Source: Boothiomyces macroporosus (lineage: Eukaryota > Chytridiomycota > Chytridiomycetes > Rhizophydiales > Terramycetaceae). From it: DNA of 64,000 bases. Positions 5,471 through 30,654 of the stretch are shown in pieces. Numbering within the stretch: the first letter of the stretch is position 1; each line of letters starts with the position of its first letter. A program made the translations under genes and the position numbers. Under the pieces are notes generated by a model. That model was given only the letters and a program-made list of their open reading frames with translations. It was not told the DNA's origin and ran no database searches. The stretch is taken from NCBI GenBank assembly GCA_027604185.1, contig JADGKB010000073.1:1-64000 (forward strand). The letters are read 5' to 3'.

Positions 5471-6466
5471 TTATTTGAGCGTTTGCGATATCATTTTTAC
5501 TTGCGATTGGTGAACATCTGTCTGTGAGGAATTCGATGTAGTTTTACGGCCAAATAATCTAGGAAAGCTTCGGTATACTGGATAAAATGACATTATAGTC
5601 AAACATACCAGACTTGATATGCAGCTTATCACTTGGAAAATTATCAGTATGTCAGTATCGTTGGAATATAACGTGTTTCCTATTAAACTGAACATGAAAT
5701 GAGAAAGTAGAGGAAGAGAAAAGCCAAAAATAGTTGCATATTTGACGGCATTCAAGTAAAATATTCCTTGAGGCAGCATTTCCTTTTTCCTCCTGTATTT
5801 CTCCTTTAGCACTTTAACAATCTTTGATATGAGAATCCAGTAAATTCCTGGAGTAATAAATATGACCAGAAATCCATAGTATATATAAGTAATAGTCCTG
5901 TAGTAGAAATAATTGTCTAGAGTTGTTAAGCCGATCGTTTCCCATAGTGAATATAATATGATGGATATTGATAGAATTATCAAGCGAATCAATTTTAATA
6001 GCTTTGATGGGTCGTAAGGTTTCCCGTTGAATTCATACAGATCATACAAACTGCTTCCAGTAACAGTGCCAACAATGTGCCCTACCAAATTACTAAGCGC
6101 TAACCCTCCTACAGCATTGAATAACAAATCCGAAGACAATGCATACTTTATGTAAATCATTAGCAGACTCGATTCCTGATCAGGGGTAAGAATCGATACG
6201 ATCAACAATTTAGTAACCCACAGGGTATTACAGAGAAACCCTAAAAGCGAAGCTGCACATAGCTTATCTTCAAATAACACTTTGAGGCTACCGTTAGATC
6301 TAGTAGTATGAAACACTAATTTAATTGGATACAGTGAATATGCAATGAACGGAATGATGTGAACAAAGGCAAAAATAATGTTAATTTCTTGTATCGTATT
6401 TGCACTCTTACAACCTATTGGCGCGGTATTGAAGTCGCAAAGGTTGTATGGGAATGACTGGGACAT
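5471..6466 (-). CDS. 7TM receptor-like protein, family B1
   Basis: 331-residue intronless protein with about seven hydrophobic segments. The N-terminal cysteine pair reads LCDFNTAPIGC, and the conserved loop after the third segment reads GTVTGSSLYDLYEFNG followed by KPYDP. The tail carries SSQTDVHQ, shared with its neighbour at 6633 and unlike the PTV tails of other subfamilies. It is the leftmost member of the 19-gene array. An AACAATGG element lies about 49 bp upstream of the ATG (6515-6522). Confidence 0.8.
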   Translation of the reverse strand: MSQSFPYNLCDFNTAPIGCKSANTIQEINIIFAFVHIIPFIAYSLYPIKLVFHTTRSNGSLKVLFEDKLCAASLLGFLCNTLWVTKLLIVSILTPDQESSLLMIYIKYALSSDLLFNAVGGLALSNLVGHIVGTVTGSSLYDLYEFNGKPYDPSKLLKLIRLIILSISIILYSLWETIGLTTLDNYFYYRTITYIYYGFLVIFITPGIYWILISKIVKVLKEKYRRKKEMLPQGIFYLNAVKYATIFGFSLPLLSHFMFSLIGNTLYSNDTDILIIFQVISCISSLVCLTIMSFYPVYRSFPRLFGRKTTSNSSQTDVHQSQVKMISQTLK

Positions 6467-6514
6467 TTTGTTTTGAAAGAAATCTTGTCATTCTTGCTAT
6501 GAATAATGGAATAA

Positions 6515-6522
6515 AACAATGG
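6515..6522 (-). promoter_or_regulatory. AACAATGG element upstream of the 5471-6466 gene
   Basis: The site matches the HMG-box/SOX consensus exactly and is one of a recurring set of AACAATG-like sites before family B genes. No binding evidence exists. Confidence 0.35.
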
Positions 6523-6632
6523 ACAAAATTTTGGCTTTAATTATATTTCATTTCAAATATTCCACAGGGTATAAGGTAAATGGGAATTTAACTTTTACAA
6601 TCAATAGTTTGTATAGCTAGCAAACTGGCGAA

Positions 6633-7640
6633 TCATCCATTTCGCGTCTGATTTCGGGCTGTTTGAGATATCAATTTCCTTTGAGTGTGTATATCTGTTT
6701 GAGACGACTGCTGGGATATCTTGCCCCCAAAGGCCTTGGGAAAGCTCTTGTAAAGCGGATACACGGTCATGACAAAAGTAGAAAACGATGACAGGGAAAA
6801 GCTGCCAATTTGAAAGTACTTTAGATACAGTGTTTGACTAAAGAAAGTGTTTCCAATCAAGTCAAGTAGAAAATGACAAAGACTGGGCAAAGCGAATCCT
6901 AATATAATTGTGATTTTAAGAATATTCAAGTACACCAATCCTGGAGGTTTTGGCTCTTTTCTTCTCTTGTATTTCGTGGTAAGTACCTGCACAATTTTTG
7001 AAATTAGAACCCAATACGTAACAGGTGTGACAGATATCAACAGGACACAGTAGTATGTGTAGTTGATCATTCTGTAGTAAGAAAAGTTGTTGTATGATAA
7101 TAATCCAGAGGTAGCCCAAAGAGAATAGATTGTAATTGCGCAAATTAATACTATTAGCCTAACCACCTTCAATAGCAAAGAAGGATTGTAAGGTTTCCCG
7201 TTAATTTCATACAAGTCATACAGACTGCTTCCTGTCACTGTTCCTACTATGTGCCCCACTATAAGACTTAGTGCTATCCCGCAAAACGAGTTGAAAAGCA
7301 TATCCAGAGAAAGAATTAATTTTATGCAGAAAAAAATATAGTCTAAATCTTTCTCTGATGTAAGAAAAGAAATCAAAAGGTACTTTGCTGCCCATGTACC
7401 TGTTGACATTATCGCCATGATACAGCTAACACACAATTTGTCATTCACGATTTCTTTGAAGCTAGATTCGTATTTGATTGCGCTATATAGCACTTTGACT
7501 GGATATATGGCGTATATGAGCGTTGCAAAAATGTAGAGTCCAGAATAAATTATATTGATTAAATGCAATGTTTCCAATTCACTACATCCCATTTGAGCTA
7601 CATTGTAATCGCAAAGATCGTAGGGAAATGACATTGACAT
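6633..7640 (-). CDS. 7TM receptor-like protein, family B1
   Basis: 335 residues from ATG 7640 (MSMSFPYDLCDYN); an upstream extension would need a GTG start. N-terminal motif LCDYNVAQMGC, loop GTVTGSSLYDLYEING. The tail SSQTDIHTQRKLISQTA is nearly that of the 5471 protein, so these two are probably a recent duplicate pair. Both a TGACGTGT site and an AACAATGA site lie within about 50 bp upstream. Confidence 0.8.
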   Translation of the reverse strand: MSMSFPYDLCDYNVAQMGCSELETLHLINIIYSGLYIFATLIYAIYPVKVLYSAIKYESSFKEIVNDKLCVSCIMAIMSTGTWAAKYLLISFLTSEKDLDYIFFCIKLILSLDMLFNSFCGIALSLIVGHIVGTVTGSSLYDLYEINGKPYNPSLLLKVVRLIVLICAITIYSLWATSGLLSYNNFSYYRMINYTYYCVLLISVTPVTYWVLISKIVQVLTTKYKRRKEPKPPGLVYLNILKITIILGFALPSLCHFLLDLIGNTFFSQTLYLKYFQIGSFSLSSFSTFVMTVYPLYKSFPKAFGGKISQQSSQTDIHTQRKLISQTARNQTRNG

Positions 7641-7663
7641 TTTTTGATTTTGAGAAAAAGATG

Positions 7664-7671
7664 ACACGTCA
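7664..7671 (-). promoter_or_regulatory. TGACGTGT element
   Basis: Read on the minus strand, TGACGTGT lies about 24 bp upstream of ATG 7640. AACAATGA follows at 7679-7686, so the two recurring array elements are adjacent here. Confidence 0.45.
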
Positions 7672-7848
7672 GTTATGAAACAATGATTCTTTACGAAAAC
7701 CGCTAATTGCAGTATAGGGCTTTTGGCAAATTCCTATATTATGGCTGCCAATTTATTGCTACCTACCCTTTATCCTATTAAATTCTCTTTCCCGTGTAAA
7801 ATAAATCTGAACACTAACGGAAAGAAACGGGTATACAGTACTACCATT

Positions 7849-8841
7849 TTATTGCGTACACGGCTCCATCCTGACTGTTGGACTAACAGCTGTTTGCGAC
7901 TCTTTCACGGAAGCCCTACTAGGTTTTGCCAACAGCCCCTGAAACGACTTGAATAGAGGATAAAACGCCATCAATGTAGAGAAAAATGTCATACATCCCA
8001 TTGCACTTGCTTGAAAAAGCATCAGTTTCGGGCTATCCGCGTAATAAGTATTTCCAACCAAAATCAATATGCAATTGACGAGACTTGGATACGCAAAGAA
8101 AAACACGCAGGCATATTTCACCAGTTTCAAGTAGTACAATCCAATCGGCTTCTTTTCCTTTTTTCTGCGGTATTTGTTTTCCAACACTGTAATAATTTTC
8201 GATAACAAATGCCAATAGAGTGTTGGGATGATAAAAAATAAGAGAAACGAAAAGTAAGTGTAGGTTGTGAATCTGTACAAAACAAAGTTTTCAAGTGACT
8301 GCACTCCTTTGTATGCCCAAAGTGCGTAGGTAGTGGTAGTGCAAATCATTATAGTTAATCTAAGAATTTTAAGTAGCTTGGACGGGTTGTATGGCTTTCC
8401 ATTGAATTCATATAAATCGTAAAGATTTGTACCTGTAACTATACCTACTATGTGACCCACCATATTACTCAATGCCAATCCACACAATGAATTAAAAATC
8501 ATGTCAAGAGAAATTGCGGCTTTAACATAGGAAGCGAGCGTGGGTAAATCCATATCCGGAGACTGGAGTGTCAATACAATGTATTTTGAAATTAGTAAAA
8601 AGCAGCAAATTATTGAAATTATACATGCTGCTGCAAGCTTATCTTGTGAAAATTGTGATAGCTGCTCCCTTCCTCTTAGCGCATTAATCAGTATTTTGCA
8701 TGGGTACACGCTGTATGCCACGAGTGGTATAGTTTGTAATGCCGCACAAATTATGTTGATCTTGTGGAAATTTGGTAAATCTACGCATGCAATTTGAGCT
8801 ACGTTATAATCACACAGCTCATACAGAAAGGCTTGCGACAT
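7849..8841 (-). CDS. 7TM receptor-like protein, family B1
   Basis: 330 residues from ATG 8841 (MSQAFLYELCDYN), chosen over an upstream TTG by alignment with relatives. N-terminal motif LCDYNVAQIAC; loop GIVTGTNLYDLYEFNG. The tail is intermediate: it has ESQTAV like the other B1 members and SPTVRM, reminiscent of the PTV tails of B3/B4. AACAATGA sits 39 bp upstream (8880-8887). Confidence 0.8.
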   Translation of the reverse strand: MSQAFLYELCDYNVAQIACVDLPNFHKINIICAALQTIPLVAYSVYPCKILINALRGREQLSQFSQDKLAAACIISIICCFLLISKYIVLTLQSPDMDLPTLASYVKAAISLDMIFNSLCGLALSNMVGHIVGIVTGTNLYDLYEFNGKPYNPSKLLKILRLTIMICTTTTYALWAYKGVQSLENFVLYRFTTYTYFSFLLFFIIPTLYWHLLSKIITVLENKYRRKKEKKPIGLYYLKLVKYACVFFFAYPSLVNCILILVGNTYYADSPKLMLFQASAMGCMTFFSTLMAFYPLFKSFQGLLAKPSRASVKESQTAVSPTVRMEPCTQ

Positions 8842-9122: not shown

Positions 9123-10097
9123 TCACGACTGTAACATTATTATGCAGAATTCTTTGCTACGATTGTCTATGTTAGTGCATCTTACCCTATCCGGTGTTCC
9201 TTTTGCAACGAGAGACTGTTTAAATAAATTTGGGAATGATTTGAATATCAAGTACAATGCTGGCCCTGAAGTAGAAAAGAATATTAACGCGTCGCAGATA
9301 CACAGACAATAAACCAAATGCTGTTGTAAAAGCTCGTTTCCTATTACCCGCAACAAGAAATTAATTGCTGTTGGTATGCCAAACCCAAAGAGAATAAAGT
9401 ATTTGATCATTTGGATATAGAATAGAGCTTTAGGAATCGGCTGATTCTTTTTCTTGTAATTTGCAGTCATGAATGTGATTATTTTAGATAGCAGTATCCA
9501 ATATAACACTGGCGTTATACATAGAGCGGTTGCAGCGTAAAATATGCTTACAGCCCTACGATAAAATGTATAATTCTCAGTGCTCTGTATTCCATACGAT
9601 GCCCATAAACTGTACATTACAATCGCGTACACCATGATTACTAATCTAATTGTTTTCATTATTGTGCTGGGTTGTACCTTTGTGCCTTGGAATTGCCAGC
9701 AATCATACAAATTTGTACCGAACGAAGCATAAACAAAGTACCCGACAAAGAAATTTAAGGCTAGCCCTCCCATTGCGATGATAATCAAGTCGAGTATAAT
9801 GACAGATTTGGTGGTGGTTGGGTCTGTACTGCCACTAAAGTAATTTAGCAAGTAGTTTTTCAATGCTTGCAAAAAATGACACAGTGTACCACAAACTGCT
9901 GCATAGAATAAGCCATCCAATACTTTTTCTTGCCTGTTCTTTATAAATTTCACCAATTTGGTGATCGGATAGATAACGAAAAAAATCCCTACAATAAAGT
10001 GCAGTGTTGCAAATACAGCATTGACTATTACAAAGGCGGGCTTGTCGTCGCAACTGGATATTGTCATACTGAAATCGCATATCTGCTGTTGATTCAT
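9123..10097 (-). CDS. 7TM receptor-like protein, family B2
   Basis: 324 residues from ATG 10097. It begins MNQQQICDFSMTISSC. The loop motif is YASFGTNLYDCWQFQG, with the W typical of B2. The short basic tail ends without a PTV motif. A TGACGT site lies about 31 bp upstream of the ATG. It is intronless and is followed at 166 bp by the next same-strand paralogue. Confidence 0.8.
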   Translation of the reverse strand: MNQQQICDFSMTISSCDDKPAFVIVNAVFATLHFIVGIFFVIYPITKLVKFIKNRQEKVLDGLFYAAVCGTLCHFLQALKNYLLNYFSGSTDPTTTKSVIILDLIIIAMGGLALNFFVGYFVYASFGTNLYDCWQFQGTKVQPSTIMKTIRLVIMVYAIVMYSLWASYGIQSTENYTFYRRAVSIFYAATALCITPVLYWILLSKIITFMTANYKKKNQPIPKALFYIQMIKYFILFGFGIPTAINFLLRVIGNELLQQHLVYCLCICDALIFFSTSGPALYLIFKSFPNLFKQSLVAKGTPDRVRCTNIDNRSKEFCIIMLQS

Positions 10098-10263: not shown

Positions 10264-11217
10264 TCATTCAACCGATTCTTGTAGATGAATCCAGCTGTTC
10301 CAAGTATAGTTTCTACGTAAGAAATAATTTACTCGTAATCTATGCCAAGTAGGGAAAGATTTATAAACAGAGTATATTGACAGACAAGATGAAGACAGTA
10401 TGTTCAAAATACTACTGGCTATTTGGAAATACAGCAGGTCCTGTTGAAAGTATTCATTTCCAACTACACGTAAAAGAAAAAATAAAGATGTCGGTATTCC
10501 GAATCCGAATATAATCATGTGCTTTGTGAGTTGAATGTATTTTAATCCTGGTGGTATTGGCTGATTCTTTTTTTGATACTTTTCCTTTAATACATTGACA
10601 ATCTTTGATAAAAGAATCCAGTATATTATTGGCGTGATGAAGGCTGATGCGATAAAGTAAAAATAGTATGCACATCGTCTATATATGACAAAAGCAGTGA
10701 TCGAGTTCATACCAATGGTTCCCCAAAGACTGTATATTACTACTGCATATATGATAATGGATAAGCGAAGTACTTTGAGCACCGTTGTTGGCTGCAGTCT
10801 TTTGCCGTTTACTTGCCAATACTCGTATAAATCAGTGCCGCAAGTTGCATTAACAAAATAAGACACAAACAAATTGACTGCAAATCCACCAATAAAACTG
10901 TTTAGAAAATCTAAGGCGAGGACTGCTACTATGGTTTTTGTTGATGTGCTGGTGCTATACTTGTTCAATAAATAGTATTTTGTAGTTAATATACAATGCA
11001 CTGCCGCTCCATTAAATCCCGACAATGTTAGTCCATCAATAAACCTTATCTGTTGATATTTTAAATGCTCGATCAGTTTCGTAATTGGGTAAATAAGGTA
11101 TAGCACAATTACAATACAGTGAATAATGCAACAGATCTGATTCACCATCATTAATGGCTCTACATTTGGACACCCCGATAAATTGAGATTGAAGTCGCAT
11201 AGCTGTGTCGTATTCAT
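10264..11217 (-). CDS. 7TM receptor-like protein, family B2
   Basis: 317 residues from ATG 11217 (MNTTQLCDFNLNLSGC); the longer open frame would need TTG. Loop motif NATCGTDLYEYWQVNG. The segment around residue 190 has the array-wide YRR-x-x-YY-F-YF signature. The C-terminus is unusually tryptophan- and arginine-rich and ends LQESVE, unlike all neighbours. Confidence 0.8.
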   Translation of the reverse strand: MNTTQLCDFNLNLSGCPNVEPLMMVNQICCIIHCIVIVLYLIYPITKLIEHLKYQQIRFIDGLTLSGFNGAAVHCILTTKYYLLNKYSTSTSTKTIVAVLALDFLNSFIGGFAVNLFVSYFVNATCGTDLYEYWQVNGKRLQPTTVLKVLRLSIIIYAVVIYSLWGTIGMNSITAFVIYRRCAYYFYFIASAFITPIIYWILLSKIVNVLKEKYQKKNQPIPPGLKYIQLTKHMIIFGFGIPTSLFFLLRVVGNEYFQQDLLYFQIASSILNILSSSCLSIYSVYKSFPTWHRLRVNYFLRRNYTWNSWIHLQESVE

Positions 11218-11296: not shown

Positions 11297-12214
11297 TCAA
11301 TTAGTATTGGTTTGTATTGTCCCGCTCTTTGCCCGTTCGACGAGTGCCGGGAGTGACTTGTAGATCATGTAGGCAGAGAACATGCTAGATGAAAAGAAAA
11401 AGAAAAAGTTGCAAGTAATTTGAAAGTAGTTCAATGAATGCTGAAACAATTCATTTCCAATTACTCTCAGAGTAAACTGTAAGGTAGTCGGCACACCAAA
11501 CCCAAGTAAAATCGCGTATTTGATGATTTGAATATAAGTTACTCCTATCGGTACTTTTTGCTTGTTCTTTTTGTATTTTTCACTAAGAACATTTACAATC
11601 TTCGAGAGAAGGATCCAGTAGATTACCGGGGTAACGAATGCAGATATAAACGCATAGAACAGATACGTACACCTCCGATAAATAGTGTAAAGATCTACGG
11701 ATTCTAAGCCTCGTGTTCCCCATGCGAGATATACCCCAACGGTATACACGAATATCATTAATCTAATAATTCTAAGAATTGTGGGAGGCGACAGCTGCTT
11801 TCCTTTCACCTGCCAGTATTCATACAAATTGGTGCCTACACTTGCATTGACAAAATATGACACAAACACATTCACTGCGAATCCACCAATAAAGTTTGCT
11901 ATGAAATCCAATAGTAACATGATCCTAATTGAATAAAGGTCGTGCGACGTGCTGTAGAAATTGAGAGTGAAATATTTAAAAGATATCATGAGGTGATTGA
12001 TAAATCCCAATGATGAAGCGACAACCAATCCGTCCTGAAATATCTGCTGGGGGGAATACATATACCTAACTGTTTTTACGACGGGGTAGAGAATGTACAG
12101 AAAACTAGATAGTAAATGCAGAATCCCAAATACAAAGTTTGTCAGCATAAGTGCATCCAGGTCATCGCATCCCGATATATTCATTGTGAAATCACACATA
12201 TATGTTACGTTCAT
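11297..12214 (-). CDS. 7TM receptor-like protein, family B2
   Basis: 305 residues from ATG 12214 (MNVTYMCDFTMNISGC). An in-frame ATG at 12226 is also possible, but relatives all start 5-7 residues before the CDF motif. Loop NASVGTNLYEYWQVKG. It lies only 79 bp from its neighbour and ends the first minus-strand block, facing ATG18. A perfect TGACGTCA lies 28 bp upstream. Confidence 0.8.
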   Translation of the reverse strand: MNVTYMCDFTMNISGCDDLDALMLTNFVFGILHLLSSFLYILYPVVKTVRYMYSPQQIFQDGLVVASSLGFINHLMISFKYFTLNFYSTSHDLYSIRIMLLLDFIANFIGGFAVNVFVSYFVNASVGTNLYEYWQVKGKQLSPPTILRIIRLMIFVYTVGVYLAWGTRGLESVDLYTIYRRCTYLFYAFISAFVTPVIYWILLSKIVNVLSEKYKKNKQKVPIGVTYIQIIKYAILLGFGVPTTLQFTLRVIGNELFQHSLNYFQITCNFFFFFSSSMFSAYMIYKSLPALVERAKSGTIQTNTN

Positions 12215-12242
12215 AATTTGCAACATTTTCCCACACACAGTT

Positions 12243-12479: not shown

Positions 12480-13627
12480 ATGAACATTGGATCTAAAACA
12501 CAGAACGGGTTGCTGTTTGCAGATTTCAATCAGGATTCAAGGTAAACGGACTGTAATGTAGCTGTATATCTGTAGGGACTAGAACGGGATACAAAATATA
12601 CACCTGCGAGCCGTTCGGGAAATGCTACGGGAAGCGTACCTTATTTTAACTCTAGAAACAGGAGGAATAGGGATCGCTGAAATGTTGTTTTGCACTTCGC
12701 TAATAGCGCTGGTTGGGGCCGGAGAGCATCCCTCTCTCTCCCCTCGAAAGCTTCAAATCATCAATACAAAGAGACAAAGCACCATTTGCGAGCTGGTGTT
12801 TAACACCGCGGTATTGGGAGTAAAATTGAATCGCAAGAGACTGGTTGTTATTCTGGAAGAGCATGTGTATGTGTATGATATCAGCAATATGAAACTATTG
12901 CACACAATTGATACTTCGCCAAATCCGAACGGTAGGATCTTGCTAATATAGCATTGTGTACACTCTCTCCATCTTCTGACAATTGCTACTTGGCGTATCC
13001 TAGTAATGCATCTTCCAGCTTGGGTGAACTGCTTTTGTTTGACGCCATAAAGCTACAAGCAGTGAATATAATACAAGCCCACAAAAGCTCGTTGTCATGC
13101 ATATCTTTCAACTATGATGGAACGATGGTTGCCACGAGCAGCGATAAAGGAACAGTTATTAGAGTATTTTCAGTTCCAGATGGGCAACAACTTTACCAAT
13201 TCCGAAGGGGAACATATACCGCAAGAATTTTCAGTATTTCCTTCTCATTAAACAACAAACTATTGAGTGTTAGCAGTGATACTGATACTGTTCATATTTA
13301 CAAATTGGAGCAACAGCAGCAACAACCTAGACGCACATCTTACCTGGAGCAATTGTAAATATTATTAATGATAGATCCAGTGCCACAACCGCGATTCAAA
13401 GCTATTTACCAGCAAACATTACTGATATTTGGGAGCCTACGCGCCATTTCGCATTCGCAAAGCTTCCTATTAAAGACAAGATTAATATTTGCGCAATATC
13501 CTCCCAAGAACTGCCTACATTATCTGTTGTAACTAGTGATGGGTCTTTTTACACTTACTCGATTGGACCAGAAGGTGGCGAATGTACTTTACAACGGCAA
13601 GAGAGCATCATGGATCCTGAAGAGTGA
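12480..13627 (+). CDS. ATG18: Autophagy PROPPIN Atg18/WIPI
   Basis: WD40-type phosphoinositide-binding protein, 355 residues, that acts at the phagophore and on vacuoles in autophagy. It has the FRRG lipid-binding motif ([16 protein letters not shown]) and the strongly conserved block [12 protein letters not shown]. Four 20-nt introns at 12542-12561, 12636-12655, 12932-12951 and 13355-13374 join CISVGT, the region before [21 protein letters not shown] and the C-terminal [10 protein letters not shown] blade into one frame. ATG 12480 opens a first exon matching the family ([15 protein letters not shown]). It sits between the two divergent blocks of 7TM genes. Confidence 0.95.
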
Positions 13628-13797: not shown

Positions 13798-14697
13798 ATG
13801 AATATTAACGATACCTGTGATTTCACATTAACACTCTCTGGATGCTCAACAAATACAAATATACGGCTCGTCTCAAAAGCATTCTGTATACTCCACTTTA
13901 TAATGATTTTTGTATACCTTCTTCACCCTATTTTGAAGATAGCACAGTACTTGCGGCAAGAATATTTTGACCCTTTGATTGCACCATCAGTACTAGTTGC
14001 TGTTATGCAAACAGCAATTACTGGTAGGTTATATTTACTTGGATGGGGAGCGGATGATTTGACTACCGTAAGGATTAATATCGCACTAGATTTCGTTGCT
14101 TTGATTTGTGGTGGGCTAGCACTTAGCAACTTTGTGTCGTACTTTGTAAGTGCTACTACGGGAAACAATTTGAGCGAGCTGTGGCAGGTGCAAGGACGCC
14201 AAGTGAATCCAGTGCTGGGGTTAAAACTGGTTAGAGTCATAGTCTTTGCTTACAATATTCTCGTATACGTTCTGTGGGAAATTTACGGGCTTTTGTCTTA
14301 CGAATCATTCAATATGTATAGAAGAGTGGCTTACTACTTCAGTTCGGTTGTATCGTTAATGACTGCAGTAATATACTGGCTGCTAATAGCCAAAATAGTA
14401 AACGTGCTGACGAAAAAATTACAGAAAAAGAAGGGTGCTGAGCCATTATCCATGTTCTTTATTCGGTTGGTAAAGCTTTTCATTGTAGTTGGATATGCTG
14501 GCCCTAGCACTCTCCAAAACTTTTTCAGAGTCATTGGGAATGAATACTTTCAAGATTCGCTCATTTATTGGCAAGTAGCTACTGAAATCTTGTACTGGAT
14601 CACAACTAGTTGCTGGGCTATTTATATATTGTACAAAACCTTTCCAAATTATTTTGCAATCACGACACCGGTGTCGTCTCAGGTAAGGATCATCTAA
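13798..14697 (+). CDS. 7TM receptor-like protein, family B2
   Basis: 299 residues, the shortest array member, starting MNINDTCDFTLTLSGC. Loop SATTGNNLSELWQVQG. The tail is almost absent (ends SSQVRII). It is closest to the 14890 protein, sharing TAVIYWLLIAKI. A degenerate TGATGTAA lies about 10 bp upstream. It opens the plus-strand block that mirrors the minus block across ATG18. Confidence 0.8.
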   Translation: MNINDTCDFTLTLSGCSTNTNIRLVSKAFCILHFIMIFVYLLHPILKIAQYLRQEYFDPLIAPSVLVAVMQTAITGRLYLLGWGADDLTTVRINIALDFVALICGGLALSNFVSYFVSATTGNNLSELWQVQGRQVNPVLGLKLVRVIVFAYNILVYVLWEIYGLLSYESFNMYRRVAYYFSSVVSLMTAVIYWLLIAKIVNVLTKKLQKKKGAEPLSMFFIRLVKLFIVVGYAGPSTLQNFFRVIGNEYFQDSLIYWQVATEILYWITTSCWAIYILYKTFPNYFAITTPVSSQVRII

Positions 14698-14889: not shown

Positions 14890-15834
14890 ATGGATGTTGG
14901 TCAAATATGCGACTTTACATTTGCACTATCAGGATGCCCTAATTTAGATTCGCTAAAAACAGTTACACTGATATCATGCATTCTCCATTTCACAATGGTA
15001 TTTATTTACCTCATTCATCCAATTCACAAAGCAATTGGATATTGGATTTATGAAGAGAGGTTCTATGACGGCTTGATATATCCTTCATTCTTTGTATGCA
15101 ATATGCAAGTGGCTATTACCTTGCGGTTGTTTCTATTGTTGTATTGTACTGGCAATGAAACTGTTACTACTTTGCGAATCAAAATATTTCTGGACTATTA
15201 CGGAGTAATCAGCGGTGGAACTGGATTAGCAAGCTTTGTATCATACTTTGTAAGCGCAACTAGTGGTACCAATCTAAATCAGCTTTGGCAAGTACAAGGA
15301 CAAGAGTACAATCCTGTCATATTTCTCGCATTGATACGAATATTCGTCACAGTATTCAACACTGTCCTCTACATCCTGTGGGAAGTGTTTGGAATGTCGT
15401 CTAATGATAGTTTCAAATTGTATAGAAAATACGAGTACTACTTTACAGCAGCAGTATCCGCCATGACTGCGGTAATATACTGGGTCCTTATAGCCAAGAT
15501 TATCCAAGTATTGACACACACACTGCAAAAGAAGAGACAGCAGGCACCGAAATCACTGTACTATTTGCAGTTGGTAAAAGTGTTTATTATTGTTGGTTTT
15601 GGAATTCCAAGCACAGTTCAAAATATTGCTAGGGTTGTTGGTAATGAGTATTTTGTGGATAGTCTGTTATCCTGGCAGGTAACAAGCGAAGCTGGGTATT
15701 TTGTTACAACTAGCTGCTGGTCAATCTATATTCTATCAAGATCTTTTCCGAAATACTTTACTACCCCCGCTCCACCGCTGAACTCGATCGAAGGAAATCT
15801 TCCGCCCATCAGCGCTGTCACAAAAATTACTTAG
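14890..15834 (+). CDS. 7TM receptor-like protein, family B2
   Basis: 314 residues, starting MDVGQICDFTFALSGC. Loop SATSGTNLNQLWQVQG. The start is preceded by TTTGAAAA immediately before ATG and by a TGATGTCAT about 10-20 bp upstream. An unrelated-looking tail of about 25 residues is proline-rich. CCATTGTA, the complement of an AACAATG-like site, lies about 50 bp upstream. Confidence 0.8.
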   Translation: MDVGQICDFTFALSGCPNLDSLKTVTLISCILHFTMVFIYLIHPIHKAIGYWIYEERFYDGLIYPSFFVCNMQVAITLRLFLLLYCTGNETVTTLRIKIFLDYYGVISGGTGLASFVSYFVSATSGTNLNQLWQVQGQEYNPVIFLALIRIFVTVFNTVLYILWEVFGMSSNDSFKLYRKYEYYFTAAVSAMTAVIYWVLIAKIIQVLTHTLQKKRQQAPKSLYYLQLVKVFIIVGFGIPSTVQNIARVVGNEYFVDSLLSWQVTSEAGYFVTTSCWSIYILSRSFPKYFTTPAPPLNSIEGNLPPISAVTKIT

Positions 15835-21234: not shown

Positions 21235-22642
21235 ATGAATGCAAGAATATTCAGAGCAATATCAAGACGATATATATCAGTAAAGAAGACTAGAGAGGCT
21301 CTTGCTGCACCGCCAGTCAAACCTAAAGAGATTTATAAAAAGAATGACAAGGAGCTGTTTCAAAAAGCACTCCTGGAAAGGAACTTTGCTCTGGCAAGGA
21401 ATGAAATCTCCAACATCAAGCCGACATTCTACGAACTGGATAAATTCATTCAACTTGGATTGACCGACATCCGAAATAATCCCAAATCAGAAAATTTACG
21501 ATTCATCGAAGCGCTTATTAAAGAAAATGAAATTGTAGAGTTGGAATACTTTTACAAGCTTTTGATTGGTTACACGAAACTGCAAGACACAATGCACCTT
21601 CAGTCGCTGGTGAATTTCATGATGGAAAAGGATATTTTGTTGCAGGAAGGAATCGTTGAAGTAATCCTGAAGCATTATGCTGGTAAAGGGCTATACTAAT
21701 ATAGATAACCATCAAACAGAAATGATTCAAGAGCTGTTGGACTATTTGCGCCAAGTGCATAAGACTACAGGAGACAGAGAACCATTCCCCGATCATTTTT
21801 ACAAATACTTGGTCCAGAGCGAAAAGAATCCTTTCAATAACTTGTCTCTATTATCCAAATTGAAAACCAAATCACCAATTTTGATCAACCAAATACTGCG
21901 TGAATTTGCCAACCATGGGTCTGTTGCAGGAATGAAAACCATGATGCCTTTTATTCAAAAAGATCAAGAAACATTCAACATCTTATTGCATGGGTACAAG
22001 AACGCTAAGCAATACGAAAAAGCCCTTTCATTACATATGGAGATGATAGAGCTGGGAATAACACCTAACCACCAAACAATGTCCATCCTGATTGATATGT
22101 ATTGCAAATCTGGGCAGGTGGACCGTGCTTTTAACATTATCAAGGAAATGGTATCTAATGGGGAAGAGCCTCTAGTTATTTATTGCAACTCTGTTCTAGA
22201 TGTATACCGTAAGCACAGACAGTTTGACAAATGCCAAGAAGTATTCGAATTGATTAAACTAATCGGGGAGCCTGACTCTACTACACTGAATATAATGATG
22301 TGCCTGTATGGATTTGACAAGCAGTATGAGAAAGCGATTGAATACTTTGGTCAAGTGAAACAAGACAAATTTAATATTGGAACAATGATTGCGATAGCTC
22401 TCTATAACGAAAAGTACCACGATGTAGATGAATATTACAAGCTTTTAAAGAAACACGGAATGTTGCCAAATTCCAAAATTATTCATAGTATGATTCAAAA
22501 GAGTATTCAAACGAACGATGGATTTGATTTTTACTTCCAGTTGGGTAAAGATCTTGGCCTATTAGACTCAAAAATCCTAAATTTGATGAAGCAAGTAAAA
22601 GGACAAGAGTGGTATGATAAAGAAAGTAAACTAATCGAATAA
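21235..22642 (+). CDS. Pentatricopeptide repeat protein, probably mitochondrial
   Basis: 461-residue PPR protein, a class that binds organellar RNA. The N-terminus (MNARIFRAISRRYISVKK) is basic without acidic residues, like a mitochondrial presequence. Several 35-residue helical repeats are visible, for example FNILLHGYKNAKQYEKALSL, TMSILIDMYCKSGQVDRAFN and CNSVLDVYRKHRQFDKCQEV. A 22-nt intron at 21683-21704 joins the two open frames. The target RNA and specific orthologue are not identified. Head-to-head with COQ3, another mitochondrial gene, which suggests shared expression. Confidence 0.85.
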
Positions 22643-22659
22643 AATACTAGTATATATTC

Positions 22660-23649
22660 TCACTTTTTTATCATTACTGTTGGAGCATCGTTAATCCTAT
22701 TTCTTTTCTTACAAGACTTTGAACTTGACTGCTTTGACGAAAGTCTATTAAAGAATCTTGGGAAAGACCTGTACAGTACATAGATCTCCAAAGATATAGA
22801 GTAAATAAATGAGCACAAGTGCGAAATCATTTGAAATATTAGCAAGTACTGTTGCAGGTACTCGTTTGCGAAAACTTTGAGAAACATTTCGATTGCTATT
22901 GAGCATGAATTTGCCGTTGGAATCAAATTCTTTAGCAATTGCAGGTACTTTAGAGATTGGGGGATTGGTTCATCACTCTCTTCGTAATGCAAAGTGAGTT
23001 TTTTAATCACGATGGAGAGAAATGTAGTGTACAGAATCGGAGTAATGAATCCTGCTACTACTGTATAAAAGTAGTAAATCATTCTGCGGTAGAATACATA
23101 CATTTCAGGTGATTGAACTCCATAATGAATCCACAGGACAAACAGAACAAGGATGTAGATAAAGACTAGTATTCTTATAAAGGTGAGTATCTTTGTTGGG
23201 TTGTAACTTTTTCCTCTTAGAGTGAACAGCTTGTCATTGGATCCAACAGCGCCTTCCACAAAGTATGTGATAAAAAATGTCATTCCTAGTCCTGCAAATG
23301 CCAGTGAAACGTATTCTAAAGCCATTACTGCTTTTATATAAACAATCTTCCTCTCTATTGAAAACCCAAGGTCGGCAATATTCATCACTATGAGTTTGAT
23401 AATTAAAACCAACTGAGCAACGGTATATGCAAGCGATCCTCTACATAGCGTGTCGTTGAAAGGTGCTTTATCATTCTGTGAGTAATTGTAGTAGGATATA
23501 AGTTTGCTTATTGGATAAGTAACGGCGATTGCTACACAGATAATGTGCAACGCAATCGCAATGTTGTTTACCCACTGAAAATAGTTGGAGTTTTGACATC
23601 CATATATTGCTATATTGTAATCGCACAAATTATTTATAAATGTATTCAT
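22660..23649 (-). CDS. 7TM receptor-like protein, family B4
   Basis: 329 residues, starting MNTFINNLCDYNIAIYGC. Loop EGAVGSNDKLFTLRG. The tail is basic (KQSSSKSCKKRNR) and ends APTVMIKK. It converges with the PPR gene (17 bp between stops) and starts the third, minus-strand block. AACAATGC lies 45 bp upstream (23694-23701). Confidence 0.8.
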   Translation of the reverse strand: MNTFINNLCDYNIAIYGCQNSNYFQWVNNIAIALHIICVAIAVTYPISKLISYYNYSQNDKAPFNDTLCRGSLAYTVAQLVLIIKLIVMNIADLGFSIERKIVYIKAVMALEYVSLAFAGLGMTFFITYFVEGAVGSNDKLFTLRGKSYNPTKILTFIRILVFIYILVLFVLWIHYGVQSPEMYVFYRRMIYYFYTVVAGFITPILYTTFLSIVIKKLTLHYEESDEPIPQSLKYLQLLKNLIPTANSCSIAIEMFLKVFANEYLQQYLLIFQMISHLCSFIYSISLEIYVLYRSFPRFFNRLSSKQSSSKSCKKRNRINDAPTVMIKK

Positions 23650-23871: not shown

Positions 23872-24885
23872 TTAATTTTTAATAATTACTGTAGGTGGTA
23901 CTGCTTGCGATTTGATTGGAACGCTTTTCATTTTTGTAGTTGGACTGCTAGGGTTATCTCTGGAAATCCTTTTTTGAATTGCACTAACAATTCTAGGAAA
24001 TGACTTGTAAATAGAGTAAAAATGAAGGACTGTAGAGCTATATAATATTGCCAAATTTGACATTACCTGCCATGGAAAAATAATCTGGCTGAAATAATCA
24101 TTTGCGAATACTTTTAGAAACATTGAAATAGCAACCGAAACTGAATAGCTTCTCGTTAGAATATTTTTGAACAGTATAAGGTAATTGAACGAATCTGGAA
24201 TCGGATCGCCTGATTCGTCAAATTTTGTTTTTAGTTTCGCTATAATTTTAGATAAAAAGAAATGGTAGATGGTTGGGCTCATTACCCCTGTAATTATGGT
24301 ATAGCTGTAATAAATGATTCGTCTTATTAACACATAATTTTCCATTGAAGAAAGGCCAATCTTTATCCATGATACAAAAAGCACCAAAGAGTATGAAAAT
24401 ATCGACAGCCGAAGTAATTTCAAAATATTGATTGGATTATAGTCCTGTCCAAAAAGTGTATATAATGAATGGTTGGATCCCAGAGCTCCTTCAATAAAGT
24501 GAGAAACCAAACTGGTCATGCAGAACCCAGCAATAGCAAACGAAATGTATTCGAGTGAAATAATCAAAGTAACATTACTGATAATTTCGTCATCGTTGGT
24601 ATATACTGAAATTCTGTTTAAAAAGAAATATTTTGTCGCGTTTATCAATTGGTAAATCAGGTTGAGTACAGTAGCAATGAAAAACAAATCTTTGTGTAGT
24701 TTGATACTTGTGTCTTTGTAAAAAACAGCACTGACAATTTTGCATGCGGGATGTATCAATCCAATTGCAAATGATAGCAGATGCAAAATGGCAGTTACTG
24801 AATTGACCAGCTGCACGGTTTCTAGGTGACTGCAACCAATCACTACGATATTGAAATCGCATAGCTGTTCCAAGAATAGAGGCAT
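23872..24885 (-). CDS. 7TM receptor-like protein, family B4
   Basis: 337 residues, starting MPLFLEQLCDFNIVVIGC. Loop EGALGSNHSLYTLFG followed by QDYNP. The tail ends PPTVIIKN. GACAATGG lies 39 bp upstream at 24924-24931. It is closest to the 25029 protein (shared GQDYNPIN). Confidence 0.8.
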   Translation of the reverse strand: MPLFLEQLCDFNIVVIGCSHLETVQLVNSVTAILHLLSFAIGLIHPACKIVSAVFYKDTSIKLHKDLFFIATVLNLIYQLINATKYFFLNRISVYTNDDEIISNVTLIISLEYISFAIAGFCMTSLVSHFIEGALGSNHSLYTLFGQDYNPINILKLLRLSIFSYSLVLFVSWIKIGLSSMENYVLIRRIIYYSYTIITGVMSPTIYHFFLSKIIAKLKTKFDESGDPIPDSFNYLILFKNILTRSYSVSVAISMFLKVFANDYFSQIIFPWQVMSNLAILYSSTVLHFYSIYKSFPRIVSAIQKRISRDNPSSPTTKMKSVPIKSQAVPPTVIIKN

Positions 24886-25028: not shown

Positions 25029-26057
25029 TTACTCAGCACTTCTAATTACAATTGTATTTGCAGGAGCGGCTACTGTTTTCGATCTTACTTCTGCAACACT
25101 AGGCCGTAATTTAATTCCTAGCTCACTTTTACCGGTTATTTTCATTCTGATTTTGTTTACGGTAGTTGGAAATGATTTGTATATTGCGTAAAACACGAGA
25201 ATAGTGGAACTGTAAGCAAGCAAGGAGTTTGACGCTACCTGCCAAGGAAGAATGTTACTGAAAAAGTACTGATTACCAAACGCTTTAATGAACATGGAAA
25301 TAGTGACTGCGACAGTGTAGCTTCTAGTAAGTATCTTTTTGAACAGGATCAGATAATTCAAAGACGGTGGTGGATCCACTCCATTAACTTCGAATTTTTC
25401 TGTTAGTTTAGTTATAATTTTTCCAATAAAATATCCATACATAATTGGAGAAACTATTGCTGTTATTATGGTGTAGCTATAGTAAATGATGGAACGCACT
25501 AGTTGATAATCGTGTTCTGACTTTAAGCCCAATTCAAACCAAAGTATATATAGAACTAGTGAATATAGAAATATAATCAGGCGAACTACTTTTAAAACGT
25601 TAATTGGGTTATAATCCTGTCCAAGCAGTGTATATATAGATTGGTTTGATCCCAATGCCCCTTCAATAAAATGGGAAATCAAAACCGTCATTCCTATTCC
25701 TGCAAAGGCAAGGGAGAGGTATTCAAAAGATATGGCCATCTTTACATTCATTACTATGCTGGGATATTCTGAATCCGCAGTGATCATGGTCATTACAAAA
25801 TATTTCGTTGCGGTAAAGAAATGGACGGTAGCGTTTAGTATTGTAGCCCAAAACAGCGTATCATTCCGTATATTCAACTCTTTGTTGTTGAATAAATAGT
25901 AGTGCAGCAATTTCCGTGTGGGGTGTATTAATCCCAACAGAAGGGATATTGAGTGAATGAATCCTGATATTAAATTAACCGTTTGAACGGACTCTACATT
26001 ATTACAGCCAACAACCAACACTGTGAAATCACACTGGGTATTTAGGAATTGATTCAT
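25029..26057 (-). CDS. 7TM receptor-like protein, family B4
   Basis: 342 residues, starting MNQFLNTQCDFTVLVVGC. Loop EGALGSNQSIYTLLG. The tail ends NTIVIRSAE, a variant of the PTV motif with three extra residues. TGACGTGT lies 18 bp before the ATG, and the gap to the next upstream paralogue is only 54 bp. Confidence 0.8.
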   Translation of the reverse strand: MNQFLNTQCDFTVLVVGCNNVESVQTVNLISGFIHSISLLLGLIHPTRKLLHYYLFNNKELNIRNDTLFWATILNATVHFFTATKYFVMTMITADSEYPSIVMNVKMAISFEYLSLAFAGIGMTVLISHFIEGALGSNQSIYTLLGQDYNPINVLKVVRLIIFLYSLVLYILWFELGLKSEHDYQLVRSIIYYSYTIITAIVSPIMYGYFIGKIITKLTEKFEVNGVDPPPSLNYLILFKKILTRSYTVAVTISMFIKAFGNQYFFSNILPWQVASNSLLAYSSTILVFYAIYKSFPTTVNKIRMKITGKSELGIKLRPSVAEVRSKTVAAPANTIVIRSAE

Positions 26058-26082: not shown

Positions 26083-26111
26083 GTTTTATTGTTCTAGCAG
26101 AGATTCTTCAA

Positions 26112-27134
26112 TTATTTATTTACCATAACGGTAGGAGCAACTGATATATGGTTGGGCTTTTCCTCTCCGCTTATTAGCCTGTTCTTTGTGGTATGCTTTT
26201 CACGGCTTAAATGTTTACTGAACCGCTTTAAATATTTAGGGAATGCTTTATAGACCGAATAGAATGTCAGGACGGTGGAGCTGTAATGTATCGCCACGTT
26301 GGATATGATTTGCCAAGGGATGATGAATGAAGACAAATAGTCATTTGCAACCACTTTTAGGAGCATAGATACCGCAGCCGCATAGGCATAGCTGCGAGTG
26401 AATATATCCCTAAACAATGTGAGAAACTTTAATGATTCGGGTATTTCCTGTCCTTCCTCTTCGTACTTTACAGTCAGTTTCCGAACGATAGTTGACAAAA
26501 AGTAATTGTACACCGTAGAGCTAAGCAGCCCTGATATCAGTGTATAACTATAGTAGATTATCCTTCGGAATAAAAGGAAATAATTCAGGTTTTCAAGTCC
26601 TAATTGGATCCATAGGACAAACAAGATCAACGAATACAGGAAAATAAACACGCGAATAAATTTGATTATCCCCATGGGATTGAATTGCTTTCCAAATAGA
26701 GAATACAGTGATTCAGTTGATCCCAAAGCACCTTGAATAAAATGTGTAATCACGCAAGTCATAATTATACCGGCAAACGCCAGCGTAAGATACTCTAGAG
26801 CCATCGTACATTGAACAGTGTATATCATCTGGTCAGCGTTCATACCAGGTGTTTGCATGTTAAGAAGCAGATATTTAGAACACATGAGGGAGTGATATAC
26901 CAAATTCAAAAATGTAGCCCAGAATAACAAGTCCTGGTGAAATGTAATCTTTTCTTTTGAGTAAAGTTGCACTATGATTTTTGAAAATGGGTATACAGAT
27001 CCAGTAATTATGGAAAAAATATGTAATATTACAGTACCTACATTCACTGTTTGCACTATATCCAAATGACTACATCCTATTACCAAAACATTAAAATCGC
27101 AGATATTATCAAGGAAATCGAATGTGGACTGCAT
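26112..27134 (-). CDS. 7TM receptor-like protein, family B4
   Basis: 340 residues from ATG 27134 (MQSTFDFLDNICDFNVLVIGC). A longer frame upstream would need TTG and adds unrelated sequence. Loop QGALGSTESLYSLFG. The tail ends APTVMVNK. TGACGTGA lies 13 bp upstream. Confidence 0.8.
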   Translation of the reverse strand: MQSTFDFLDNICDFNVLVIGCSHLDIVQTVNVGTVILHIFSIITGSVYPFSKIIVQLYSKEKITFHQDLLFWATFLNLVYHSLMCSKYLLLNMQTPGMNADQMIYTVQCTMALEYLTLAFAGIIMTCVITHFIQGALGSTESLYSLFGKQFNPMGIIKFIRVFIFLYSLILFVLWIQLGLENLNYFLLFRRIIYYSYTLISGLLSSTVYNYFLSTIVRKLTVKYEEEGQEIPESLKFLTLFRDIFTRSYAYAAAVSMLLKVVANDYLSSFIIPWQIISNVAIHYSSTVLTFYSVYKAFPKYLKRFSKHLSREKHTTKNRLISGEEKPNHISVAPTVMVNK

Positions 27135-27146
27135 TGAAAATATTTT

Positions 27147-27154
27147 TGACGTGA
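27147..27154 (-). promoter_or_regulatory. TCACGTCA element
   Basis: TGACGTGA on plus, 13 bp before ATG 27134. Confidence 0.45.
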
Positions 27155-27303
27155 TTTCTGAACAATAATGAGGTGCTCCTATTGTTGGCTTGTACCATAT
27201 AATGTTTCTTATTGAACTAGTTAATATCAAATATCTTAATAATCAGCAAAACTATTTGAAAAAACACTGGTATTCTAGCACCTTGGTTATATTACATGTA
27301 AAA

Positions 27304-28323
27304 TCATTTATTCAATACGACTGTAGGAGCACTATAATTAGTTTTTGCTTTGTCAATAACCAAGTTATTGTTACTTGGCTTCCTGTCTGAACCCTTAGGG
27401 CTAGACATTTTCTTTCTGATTCGAGTGATGTTTTCGGGTGATGTGCGATATATAGAGTAGAATGTCAAGACCGTGGAAGTGTAGAAACCAGCAAGATTGC
27501 CCACAATTTGCCAAGGAAGGATTGAATCTGAAAAATAATCATTTGCAAATACCCGAGTAAACATTGAAATTCCACCAGAAAAGGCGTAGCTAGTTGTAAA
27601 TATCTTTTTGAACAACTTTAGTACTTTTAAAGCTTCAGGAGCCTCCAAATTGTTTTCTTTGAATCGTGTTTCCAACTTTTTGACAATTTTAGATAAAAAG
27701 TTGTGATATACCCCTGGATTTATCATGCCCACTAGCACTGTGTAACTGTAGTATATTATTCGTCTACAAATTACGTATTGATCTCGGCTTTGTAGTCCTA
27801 ACTGCAACCACAAGGTAAAAAGAGCAATAGAAAAGAGAAATACTACAAGTCTAATCAATCTAATGATCTTCATTGGGTTGAATTCTTTTCCAAATAATGT
27901 GTAAATTGTTTCATTCGATCCCAATGCTCCTTGGACCATATGCGAGACAAAGCAAGTAATACAAATCCCAGCAGTAGATAATGAAATGTATTCAATTGAT
28001 ATTATCGCTTTTGTATTAGATAGAATGGCATCGTAATCAGAGTTGACAGATAAACTGTTCATCAAGAGGTATTTCGTAATCGTCAGCGAGTGGTACAACA
28101 CATTCATGACCGTGGACCAAAATACTAAATCTTTGTGTAAATTTGCATTTTTTTGTATAGTGAATTGTCGAAGGATTTTGCTTACTGGAAATACCAGTCC
28201 TGTCGCTAAGGAAACAACGTGAAGGCATGCAAATATTGTGTTTACAATACGTACGAGGCTATAGTCATTGCAGCCAATGATTATTACATTAAAGTCGCAG
28301 ATATTTTCAAGGAATAGGCTCAT
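27304..28323 (-). CDS. 7TM receptor-like protein, family B4
   Basis: 339 residues, starting MSLFLENICDFNVIIIGC. Loop QGALGSNETIYTLFG. The fifth-to-sixth segment loop ends KKIFTTSYAFSGGISMF, where most members have TRS(F/Y). The tail ends APTVVLNK. Only 41 bp separate its start from the stop of the next gene; TGACGTCG and a second TGACGT lie in that gap or its edge. Confidence 0.8.
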   Translation of the reverse strand: MSLFLENICDFNVIIIGCNDYSLVRIVNTIFACLHVVSLATGLVFPVSKILRQFTIQKNANLHKDLVFWSTVMNVLYHSLTITKYLLMNSLSVNSDYDAILSNTKAIISIEYISLSTAGICITCFVSHMVQGALGSNETIYTLFGKEFNPMKIIRLIRLVVFLFSIALFTLWLQLGLQSRDQYVICRRIIYYSYTVLVGMINPGVYHNFLSKIVKKLETRFKENNLEAPEALKVLKLFKKIFTTSYAFSGGISMFTRVFANDYFSDSILPWQIVGNLAGFYTSTVLTFYSIYRTSPENITRIRKKMSSPKGSDRKPSNNNLVIDKAKTNYSAPTVVLNK

Positions 28324-28356
28324 TAGTACTAGATTAGAAAAAAGTCCAAAGATGAA

Positions 28357-28364
28357 TGACGTCG
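28357..28364 (-). promoter_or_regulatory. TGACGTCG element, with second TGACGT at 28370
   Basis: Near-palindromic site 33 bp before ATG 28323. The second copy overlaps the last codons of the 28365-29462 gene. Confidence 0.45.
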
Positions 28365-29462
28365 CTATTTGACGTTACTAAGGGTTCTCTTTTCTGCTGA
28401 CAGCAATTCGTTTGAATGTGCAATTTGCTTTGGTAGCATTACAGTGTTTGCCGCTAACTTTTCAGTTTTCGCAAACACAATTTTACTCTTGGCATCGTCT
28501 GATGCTACAACCGAGTTTTTGTTTGATTTTGCAAGGTTGCTTTTGTTACTAGTGTATGAATTAATTAATGATGGGAATGCCTTGTAGATTCCGTAGGTGG
28601 AAAGCACCGTTCCTGTGTAAATGGTGGAGATGTTTGTCGTGATTTGAACGTAAATCAACTGGTTTTGCAAATAGTCATTTCCAATTACTTTTAACAGCAT
28701 TGCCAAAGTAAGCGCTACCGAAAAGCTTCTTGTTAATGTCTTTTTCAAGAGAATCAGATAATGCAATGCTGTTGGAATTGGTTGCTCGAGTTGCACATAG
28801 TGGTTGGTTAGTTTATTGACTATAGCACCCAGGAAAACTGCATATATTGCAGGGGATATTACTCCAGTAATAATAGCATAGCTGTAATAAATCAACCTTC
28901 TAATTAAGATATAGTTCTCCATTGTTTCAGTCCCGACTGTTGCCCATAGAATATAAGCAGTGGTGGTGTACAGCAAAACAAACAATCGAAACAGTTTGAT
29001 AATAATTTGTGGGTCAAATCTCTTTCCACTAACCTGAAATAATTCACTGTTGGTACCTATCGCTCCTTTTACGAAAAACGCGGTTAAAACATTCATTGCC
29101 AGTCCGCCAAATAAATTACCAACAAAGTCTAATATCATCATTGCTCTAGCACGAAATAGAAGAGTAGCAGAATCTGCGGTATCTGTGGGAATAGTAAGTA
29201 TAATGTACTTTGTCAAATGTATGGATTGAGTAAAGAAGCTCAAGATTGAGCTAATGAAAAGCAAATCTCGTTTGATTGGGTTATCTCCTGATGAAGTTGT
29301 GATAGCTCGGTATATCAAACAAATGGGATGTATTAACACGAAGGCTAGCACAAATGAGTGACCTATTGCAAAAACATAACTTGTAAACCGCAGTGCAGCG
29401 CTATTCCCACACCCTGCAATAGAAATGTTGTAGTCACAGAGATTTGACAGAAATGTGTTCAT
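28365..29462 (-). CDS. 7TM receptor-like protein, family B3
   Basis: 365 residues from ATG 29462 (MNTFLSNLCDYNISIAGC). Loop KGAIGTNSELFQVSG. It is the longest array member, because about 20 residues follow the tail motif (AANTVMLPKQ). By loop and N-terminus it groups with the plus-strand B3 genes rather than its B4 neighbours. AACAATGA sits 18 bp upstream (29480-29487). Confidence 0.8.
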   Translation of the reverse strand: MNTFLSNLCDYNISIAGCGNSAALRFTSYVFAIGHSFVLAFVLIHPICLIYRAITTSSGDNPIKRDLLFISSILSFFTQSIHLTKYIILTIPTDTADSATLLFRARAMMILDFVGNLFGGLAMNVLTAFFVKGAIGTNSELFQVSGKRFDPQIIIKLFRLFVLLYTTTAYILWATVGTETMENYILIRRLIYYSYAIITGVISPAIYAVFLGAIVNKLTNHYVQLEQPIPTALHYLILLKKTLTRSFSVALTLAMLLKVIGNDYLQNQLIYVQITTNISTIYTGTVLSTYGIYKAFPSLINSYTSNKSNLAKSNKNSVVASDDAKSKIVFAKTEKLAANTVMLPKQIAHSNELLSAEKRTLSNVK

Positions 29463-29583
29463 TCTCAAACTTTTCCTCAAACAATGAAATGCCAGTTGGC
29501 TATTGTGAACACTAGCAAATCTTGTTTATTGTTCAAATAATGAAAACATCGGCTTGACACTTACTAATCAACCTATCGCTTCA

Positions 29584-30654
29584 TCAAGTTTGCGAGGAAG
29601 CATTCTTGGTGTGCGTCGGCTTTGGAATCATTATCGTACCAGCTACATTTGCTTTTTCGGTTTTTGCGAAATTAACCTTGCTTGGCTGACTTGCTTTAGC
29701 GGTAACTGCAGAATTTCGATTTGATTTGTTGTTACTCTTTCCAGAGTATCCTTTCAGGACATTGGGAAACGTTTTGTAGATGCAATATATTGAAAGAACG
29801 GTTGCATTGTAAAATGTCAACGCGTTTGACACTATTTGAACTTCTAGAATGTAATTTTGAAGATAATCGTTCCCAAATGCCCTCAAAAAGAAAATCAGGG
29901 TAATCGCAACCGAGAAACTTCCCGTCAGTGTTTTTTTGAATATAATAAGGTATTTGAGAGACACTGGGATTGGCTCATCGTTTGATATGTAATATTTAGT
30001 CAAGGTAGAAATAACTTTGGAAAGCAGTCCATTAAACATCAACGGAGATATTATTCCAGTTACAACAGTGTAACCATAGTAAATGAGTCTTCTGTATAGA
30101 ATATATGCTTCCAAATCGTATAATCCGTATACTATCCATAAAACATAGTTGACCAGAGTATAGATTGAAATAATCAATCTAATAAGTTTGATTAGTATTT
30201 GAGGATCAAACTTTTTTCCACTGACCTGGAATAGTTGATTGTGCCCACCAATCGCTCCTTGGACAAAATACGTCGTCAGAATTGACATTCCAATTCCAGC
30301 AAGAAAGTTTCCAATGTACTCTAGTATAATGATTCCTCTCGCAAAGTTTATAATGCTGGAGTAATCAGATTGTGGGGTTGGTATTGTTAATAGTATGTAC
30401 TTTGCTAGATTCATGCTTTGATATATTGCGCTAAATATTGAACTGAAAAATAGGAGGTCTCGTCTTAGCGATGAGGCTACTGTAGGGGATTTCATTGCTC
30501 TGAATATCAACATCACAGGATGTACCAAAATAAACAGTATTGCGATACCTTGGAATATCGCGGATATATTGCTAACATGCCAAAGTAAATAGTAATTTGA
30601 ACAGCCAACAATTGAGATATTATAATCGCATAAGTTTGTCAGGAATGTGCTCAT
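29584..30654 (-). CDS. 7TM receptor-like protein, family B3
   Basis: 356 residues from ATG 30654 (MSTFLTNLCDYNISIVGC). Loop QGAIGGHNQLFQVSG. The tail motif is AGTIMIPKP, followed by about ten residues. It is closest to the 28365 protein (shared SNKSNRNS-type tail and FAKTEK). It ends the 25-kb array. CCATTGTC lies 32 bp upstream. Confidence 0.8.
   Translation of the reverse strand: MSTFLTNLCDYNISIVGCSNYYLLWHVSNISAIFQGIAILFILVHPVMLIFRAMKSPTVASSLRRDLLFFSSIFSAIYQSMNLAKYILLTIPTPQSDYSSIINFARGIIILEYIGNFLAGIGMSILTTYFVQGAIGGHNQLFQVSGKKFDPQILIKLIRLIISIYTLVNYVLWIVYGLYDLEAYILYRRLIYYGYTVVTGIISPLMFNGLLSKVISTLTKYYISNDEPIPVSLKYLIIFKKTLTGSFSVAITLIFFLRAFGNDYLQNYILEVQIVSNALTFYNATVLSIYCIYKTFPNVLKGYSGKSNNKSNRNSAVTAKASQPSKVNFAKTEKANVAGTIMIPKPTHTKNASSQT

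Follow-up and report, generated by a model that had tools for sequence, protein, structure and literature searches.

In animals, odorant and other chemoreceptor genes stand in tandem arrays of single-exon genes whose divergent paralogues fall into subgroups. Little is known at receptor level about the means by which the zoospores of chytrids perceive food, hosts and partners. For fungi at large, one survey defines 17 classes of G-protein-coupled receptors (GPCRs), leaves 141,666 seven-helix proteins unassigned to a class, proposes the DUF6534 proteins, reported from Agaricomycotina, as new GPCRs and describes the classical fungal classes as reduced in early-diverging fungi (PMC12842992); chytrids are credited with rhodopsin, adhesion, glutamate and frizzled receptor types in another study (PMC3251606). 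Here we describe a tandem array of 19 genes for seven-helix proteins in the chytrid Boothiomyces macroporosus, located at 5471-30654 of the window, by which we mean the whole analysed stretch of 64,000 nucleotides (positions 1-64000 of contig JADGKB010000073.1, hereafter C73, in a genome of 15.2 Mb and 216 contigs). Judged by predicted topology, predicted fold and family status, the best reading is that of a new GPCR-like receptor family for external cues. The 19 genes probably encode membrane receptors of the GPCR fold, with a chemosensory role and coupling to G-alpha proteins, and are one branch of a chytrid family that is larger and has no name. The question of sensing is directly testable here, because the single-exon array is bounded and both its relatives and the candidate G-alpha partners lie in a genome of only 15 Mb.

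The array and its predicted receptor fold

All 19 members of the array that an earlier note on this DNA had proposed were found in place as intact single open reading frames (ORFs) of 299-365 amino acids, each open from ATG to stop, and their description as intronless holds in the sense of single open frames, though the modelled introns of this genome are mostly only about 20 bases long. Three blocks make up the array, of which 5471-12226 contains six minus-strand genes, 13798-20479 six plus-strand genes and 22660-30654 seven minus-strand genes, with gaps of 41-281 bases between adjacent family genes inside a block; three genes unrelated to the family (Atg18-like, presumed COQ3-like and PPR) separate the blocks. 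The proteins can be aligned over their full length, with 14 invariant columns and 25-45% identity to the first sequence. Sixteen more divergent family genes lie on six other contigs, which brings the genome to at least 35 by our own grouping of exon matches.

Predictions of three kinds agree on the seven-helix topology that had been proposed. Hydropathy averaged over the 19-protein alignment has seven hydrophobic segments, and the loop charges place the N-terminus outside; the tail and inner loops 1 and 5 are basic, outer loops 2 and 4 mildly so, and loop 3 is neutral. Because a threshold applied to single sequences yields only three to seven segments per protein, the topology rests on the alignment average together with two AlphaFold2 models, those of the genes at 15970..17028 and 11297..12226, with predicted local distance difference test scores (pLDDT) of 85 and 88.9 respectively, both of which contain seven helices and a helix 8. 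The structural neighbours of the two models, in all 50 rows of the VIA-align lists, are GPCRs or microbial rhodopsins, with no transporter among them, over alignments of 206-271 residues and at sequence identities of 4-14%. As predicted structures, both models fall in the GPCR/rhodopsin fold and are similar to solved GPCRs; the top neighbour of the first is GABA-B, despite the absence of a 7tm_3 match.

The proposal that the genes belong to no named family survived searches of Pfam (with 10 array proteins, then all 19, then an 18-member wider alignment), NCBIfam (all 19) and the PDB sequences (two profiles). Among the 19 proteins no Pfam match was better than E 0.04 and no NCBIfam match was credible; the wider alignment gave nothing credible in Pfam, and no sequence relative was found among the solved structures. 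Connexin (E 0.0036, two of the 18 wider-alignment members), SctS (0.012) and DUF6419 (0.043), the latter two in one of the 19 proteins each, were dismissed as weak matches of hydrophobic stretches. With respect to class A, neither DRY at the inner end of the third transmembrane segment (TM3) nor NPxxY in TM7 occurs at its expected place in any of the 19, and the class A Pfam models have no match among them at E <= 10. The class C model 7tm_3 likewise has no match among the 19; its nine matches in the genome are all on other contigs, none on C73. DUF6534 (PF20152) has no match in the genome, but has none in the control genomes either.

These absences of class A signatures and of any match to the Pfam GPCR models, along with Foldseek E-values that are weak even at best (0.019), weigh against a receptor identity and lend some colour to an alternative that we nevertheless regard as unlikely, namely that the array encodes seven-helix proteins other than G-protein receptors, for example transporter, lipid-handling or structural proteins, which share with receptors only the general arrangement of the bundle. 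What tells against it is the exclusive presence of GPCRs and rhodopsins in the neighbour lists, over 206-271 residues, together with the predicted helix 8 and the basic charge of the tail and of inner loops 1 and 5. A variable and basic third inner loop is typical of GPCRs, and such a loop is present in most of the modelled relatives, the joins in this loop being uncertain in the models C32_a, C32_b and C51_2k. It is improbable that the array encodes a lineage-specific chytrid set of mating or pheromone receptors, a counterpart of Ste2/Ste3: Ste2 does appear among the structural neighbours, as merely one row among many GPCR classes, the Pfam STE2/STE3 models have no match among the 19 array proteins, and 35 divergent genes would exceed the expected need of a pheromone system. 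That the proteins are microbial-type rhodopsins, sensors or pumps of the same fold, can be set aside with near certainty, since a retinal Schiff base requires a lysine in TM7 and none lies within the bundle part of that segment in any of the 19 (two members carry one, at the outer end only), nor is there a Pfam rhodopsin match.

For the receptor interpretation, then, surface location, ligand binding, G-protein coupling, a chemosensory role and the cell stage concerned are properties that we infer. In each protein an N-terminus that is short, lies outside and has two conserved cysteines would precede the seven helices, followed by helix 8 on the inner side and by a tail that is basic and variable, and the family (19 array genes and 16 elsewhere) would have grown through tandem duplication. 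Most likely each paralogue would bind a different soluble cue and activate one of the G-alpha proteins of the genome, probably one of its expanded set, and the signal may steer a particular stage, for example the zoospore. The earlier note suggested chemosensing, host recognition or mating, each of which is conceivable as a use. The outer and inner halves of the 19 proteins are equally conserved (0.32 each), which offers no argument for ligand-side diversification.

Motifs, subgroups and the wider family

Four motifs had been ascribed to all 19 proteins. The N-terminal C-D-[FY]-[NTS]-x5-7-C is indeed present in every one, whereas the other three proved to be idealised, the loop motif G-[TSNG]-x3-L-[YFS]-x3-G being exact in eight, RRxxYYxY in ten and YK[ST]FP in eight of the 19; for the loop and for the tail, a relaxed version fits all 19. 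Among the invariant columns are the pair of N-terminal cysteines, an Asp with which TM2 begins and a W-x3-G that closes TM4. Since the two N-terminal cysteines are the only cysteine columns common to at least eight of the 19 sequences, an N-terminal disulphide is likely.

In the tree the array forms one clade, and the proposed division into B1 (three genes), B2 (five), B3 (six) and B4 (five) was recovered with branch support of 100/100 for B1, 100/98 for B3, 88/85 for B2 and only 60/32 for B4. The genes, each identified by its ORF and by the alignment, are distributed as follows (amino acids in brackets). B1 occupies 5471..6466 (331), 6633..7640 (335) and 7849..8841 (330) on the minus strand. 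B2 continues on that strand with 9123..10097 (324), 10264..11217 (317) and 11297..12226 (309, the second structure model) and has two plus-strand genes at 13798..14697 (299) and 14890..15834 (314). B3 has four members on the plus strand, at 15970..17028 (352, the first structure model), 17197..18219 (340), 18335..19363 (342) and 19475..20479 (334), and two on the minus strand, at 28365..29462 (365) and 29584..30654 (356). B4 lies wholly on the minus strand, at 22660..23649 (329), 23872..24885 (337), 25029..26057 (342), 26112..27134 (340) and 27304..28323 (339). The pattern T-[VI]-[MVI]-[ILVM] occurs anywhere in the protein in 12 of the 19, and near the C-terminus in most B3 and B4 members.

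The relatives outside the array came from genome searches in which four array proteins and two divergent relatives served as queries: seven, plus a fragment near 39.6 kb, are on C61, three on C32, two each on C51 and C5, and one each on C56 and C28. A query from C5 matches C73:5798-6466 at 5e-18 and C61 at 8e-25. Thirteen of the 16 were modelled (all except C61 38k, C51 4k and C28), and in a tree of 32 sequences a 100/100 branch splits these from the 19 array genes. Columns invariant across the family were taken from an alignment of 18 sequences, seven array members and 11 relatives; C61_36k, cut by the end of its locus, and C32_a, with a doubtful second intron, were kept in the tree and excluded from this alignment. 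The columns comprise the CD...GC N-terminus, the Asp at the start of TM2, an Arg and a Trp (the latter with W-x3-G) in TM4, an Arg before TM5 and a Tyr near the end of TM7. All 11 aligned relatives also share a K-x3-D close to the outer end of TM7, its K position being Q in 17 of the 19 array members. Furthermore, a GT..AG intron of 19-22 bases interrupts eight of the 13 modelled relatives at one common site within the inner portion of TM3; the array genes have no such intron.

Protein searches returned four relatives in all, one from Boothiomyces sp. JEL0838, two from Boothiomyces sp. JEL0866 and one from Terramyces sp. JEL0728, genera of the Terramycetaceae (Rhizophydiales, Chytridiomycota). 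The JEL0838 protein is the closest to the gene at 15970, with 98% identity, and the JEL0866 counterpart of the same gene is 80% identical; by eye, the other JEL0866 entry fuses in one model the counterparts of 9123 and 7849, and the Terramyces protein is a counterpart of 13798. The two JEL0866 entries have locus numbers that differ by two and lie on contigs of equal length. A protein search of plasmids found nothing. The characterisation of the array as a lineage-specific expansion fits these findings. Relatives were found only in Boothiomyces and Terramyces, but restriction to this lineage is not proven, as the word-seeded homologue searches miss known relatives: one that included the 15970 query, and scored only 8000 candidates, skipped the 98% identical JEL0838 protein, and another missed the Terramyces protein. 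The array is only a part of the family, and the expansion is not a young burst, because the end branches of the array are 0.42-0.96 changes per column and likely orthologues exist in the sister strains and also, judged by eye, in Terramyces. An old expansion whose frames are still open would argue for use.

Upstream elements and candidate G-alpha partners

A strict element resembling the cAMP response element (CRE), ACGTCA or TGACGT within 100 bases upstream of the start, is found at seven of the 19 array genes, eight of the 13 relatives and two of 14 other starts in the window, the last being few and putative, some perhaps not true starts. Shuffling gives a mean of 0.5 for the array and never as many as seven in 1000 trials; random segments of 31-64 kb gave 0.013. 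Both positive controls belong to a neighbouring pair of multi-TM genes (below), and with this pair removed, a step taken after the result was known, the controls stand at 0/12 (Fisher p 0.026 for the array and 0.0016 for the relatives). This pattern and ATTGT were picked by eye, which makes the array test post hoc and the relatives the independent set. The looser core CGTCA/TGACG occurs at 11/19 array genes, 10/13 relatives and 3/14 controls, and ATTGT upstream at 14/19, 3/13 and 1/14, respectively. When the 120 bases upstream of the starts were scanned for k-mers, the counts barely exceeded the 95% null maximum (5 against 4 for CATTGTTT, 9 against 9 for ATTGTT), with downstream AATAAA at 9 against 8; TGACGTCA is counted 105 times in the genome and the reversed pattern 322 times. 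The CRE-like element, together with the array-only ATTGT, could possibly mark a common regulator of the receptor genes.

The G-alpha matches of the genome, as we group them, amount to 11 genes, with one on C7, three on C8 and a tandem run of seven at C56:72.7-81.4 kb, two small matches below the cut-off (C11:140244 and C7:195084) being left out of this count. The canonical gene on C7, in which five introns of 21-22 bases give a complete protein, has an MGC start, DVGGQ and the end DVGLI. The other ten are divergent, the switch-II glutamine being replaced (DVSGL in nine, DVNGN in one), and the P-loop GKS is present in all 11; several of the modelled N-termini are uncertain and one internal stop persists in C56_5. 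In animal G-alpha proteins the change of this glutamine to leucine blocks GTP hydrolysis, and by analogy the divergent proteins may hydrolyse GTP very slowly. The strict CRE-like site precedes two of the five G-alpha starts examined, that of the canonical gene included. Thirteen RGS matches are also present in the genome, four of them close together at C38:61629-65071, so tandem expansion may extend to a further component of G-protein signalling.

We offer only tentatively the wider idea that the Terramycetaceae possess a sensory system of their own, in which a new GPCR class of at least 35 receptors has expanded together with ten private, non-canonical G-alpha proteins, with one CRE-like promoter element shared by the receptor genes and part of the G-alpha set. 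If so, the receptors would have diversified alongside their transducers, and the off-switch would be a different one; and if the divergent G-alpha proteins are natural glutamine-to-leucine forms coupled to the receptors, they would show how a G-protein switch can do without the usual hydrolysis residue.

Neighbouring genes and comparison with known systems

The first two blocks of the array are separated by a plus-strand WD40 gene at 12700..13626, read by eye and with an approximate start, which we take from its FRRGT motif to be Atg18-like (PROPPIN). Between the second and third blocks are a minus-strand gene with Pfam methyltransferase domains (20484..21212), presumably COQ3-like, and a plus-strand PPR gene in two overlapping ORFs (21235..22642, with the Pfam PPR match on 21677-22642). 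Before the array in the window, 2232-3131 and 4456-5333 are paralogous multi-TM genes of another unnamed family, without a Pfam match, each with one intron of 19-20 bases and a strict CRE-like site upstream; their relatives are on C192, C95, C23 and perhaps C166. Introns of about 20 bases lie in the window at 1222-1240, 2488-2506 and 4712-4731, one of 19 bases joins a complete PP5-like phosphatase frame, and 38 of the 46 modelled G-alpha introns measure 19-22 bases; literature searches, at the level of listings, met no paper on chytrid introns this short. Beyond the array is an IQUB-like gene at 31083-32042 (PF25805, E 3e-52); IQUB is a ciliary family, which fits a zoospore-forming fungus. It is followed by an Argonaute-like gene at 34799-36337, with a Piwi domain on 34799-35479 (E 4e-63) and, by eye, its upstream part in the ORF 35594-36337.

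In the open literature, at the level of listings, we met no publication on the array family, which does not by itself show absence from print. The 17 classes defined in the fungal survey are likewise seven-helix proteins with lineage-specific expansions, for instance the Pth11-like receptors, and the DUF6534 proteins are likewise an unnamed seven-helix fungal family proposed as receptors; the array genes differ in matching the Pfam domain of no class, and could be among the 141,666 proteins left unassigned there (PMC12842992). With the best structural neighbours, which include GABA-B, MrgD, class T taste receptors and class D Ste2, the array proteins share the helix arrangement, an N-terminus predicted outside by charge, helix 8 and basic inner loops; unlike them, they lack class A signatures and Pfam GPCR matches, and both of their conserved cysteines sit in the N-terminus. 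The odorant and chemoreceptor arrays of animals belong to a different kingdom, no sequence relation to them was found and the role of the chytrid genes is putative; in gene organisation, with divergent single-exon paralogues in tandem and in subgroups, the two are nonetheless the same.

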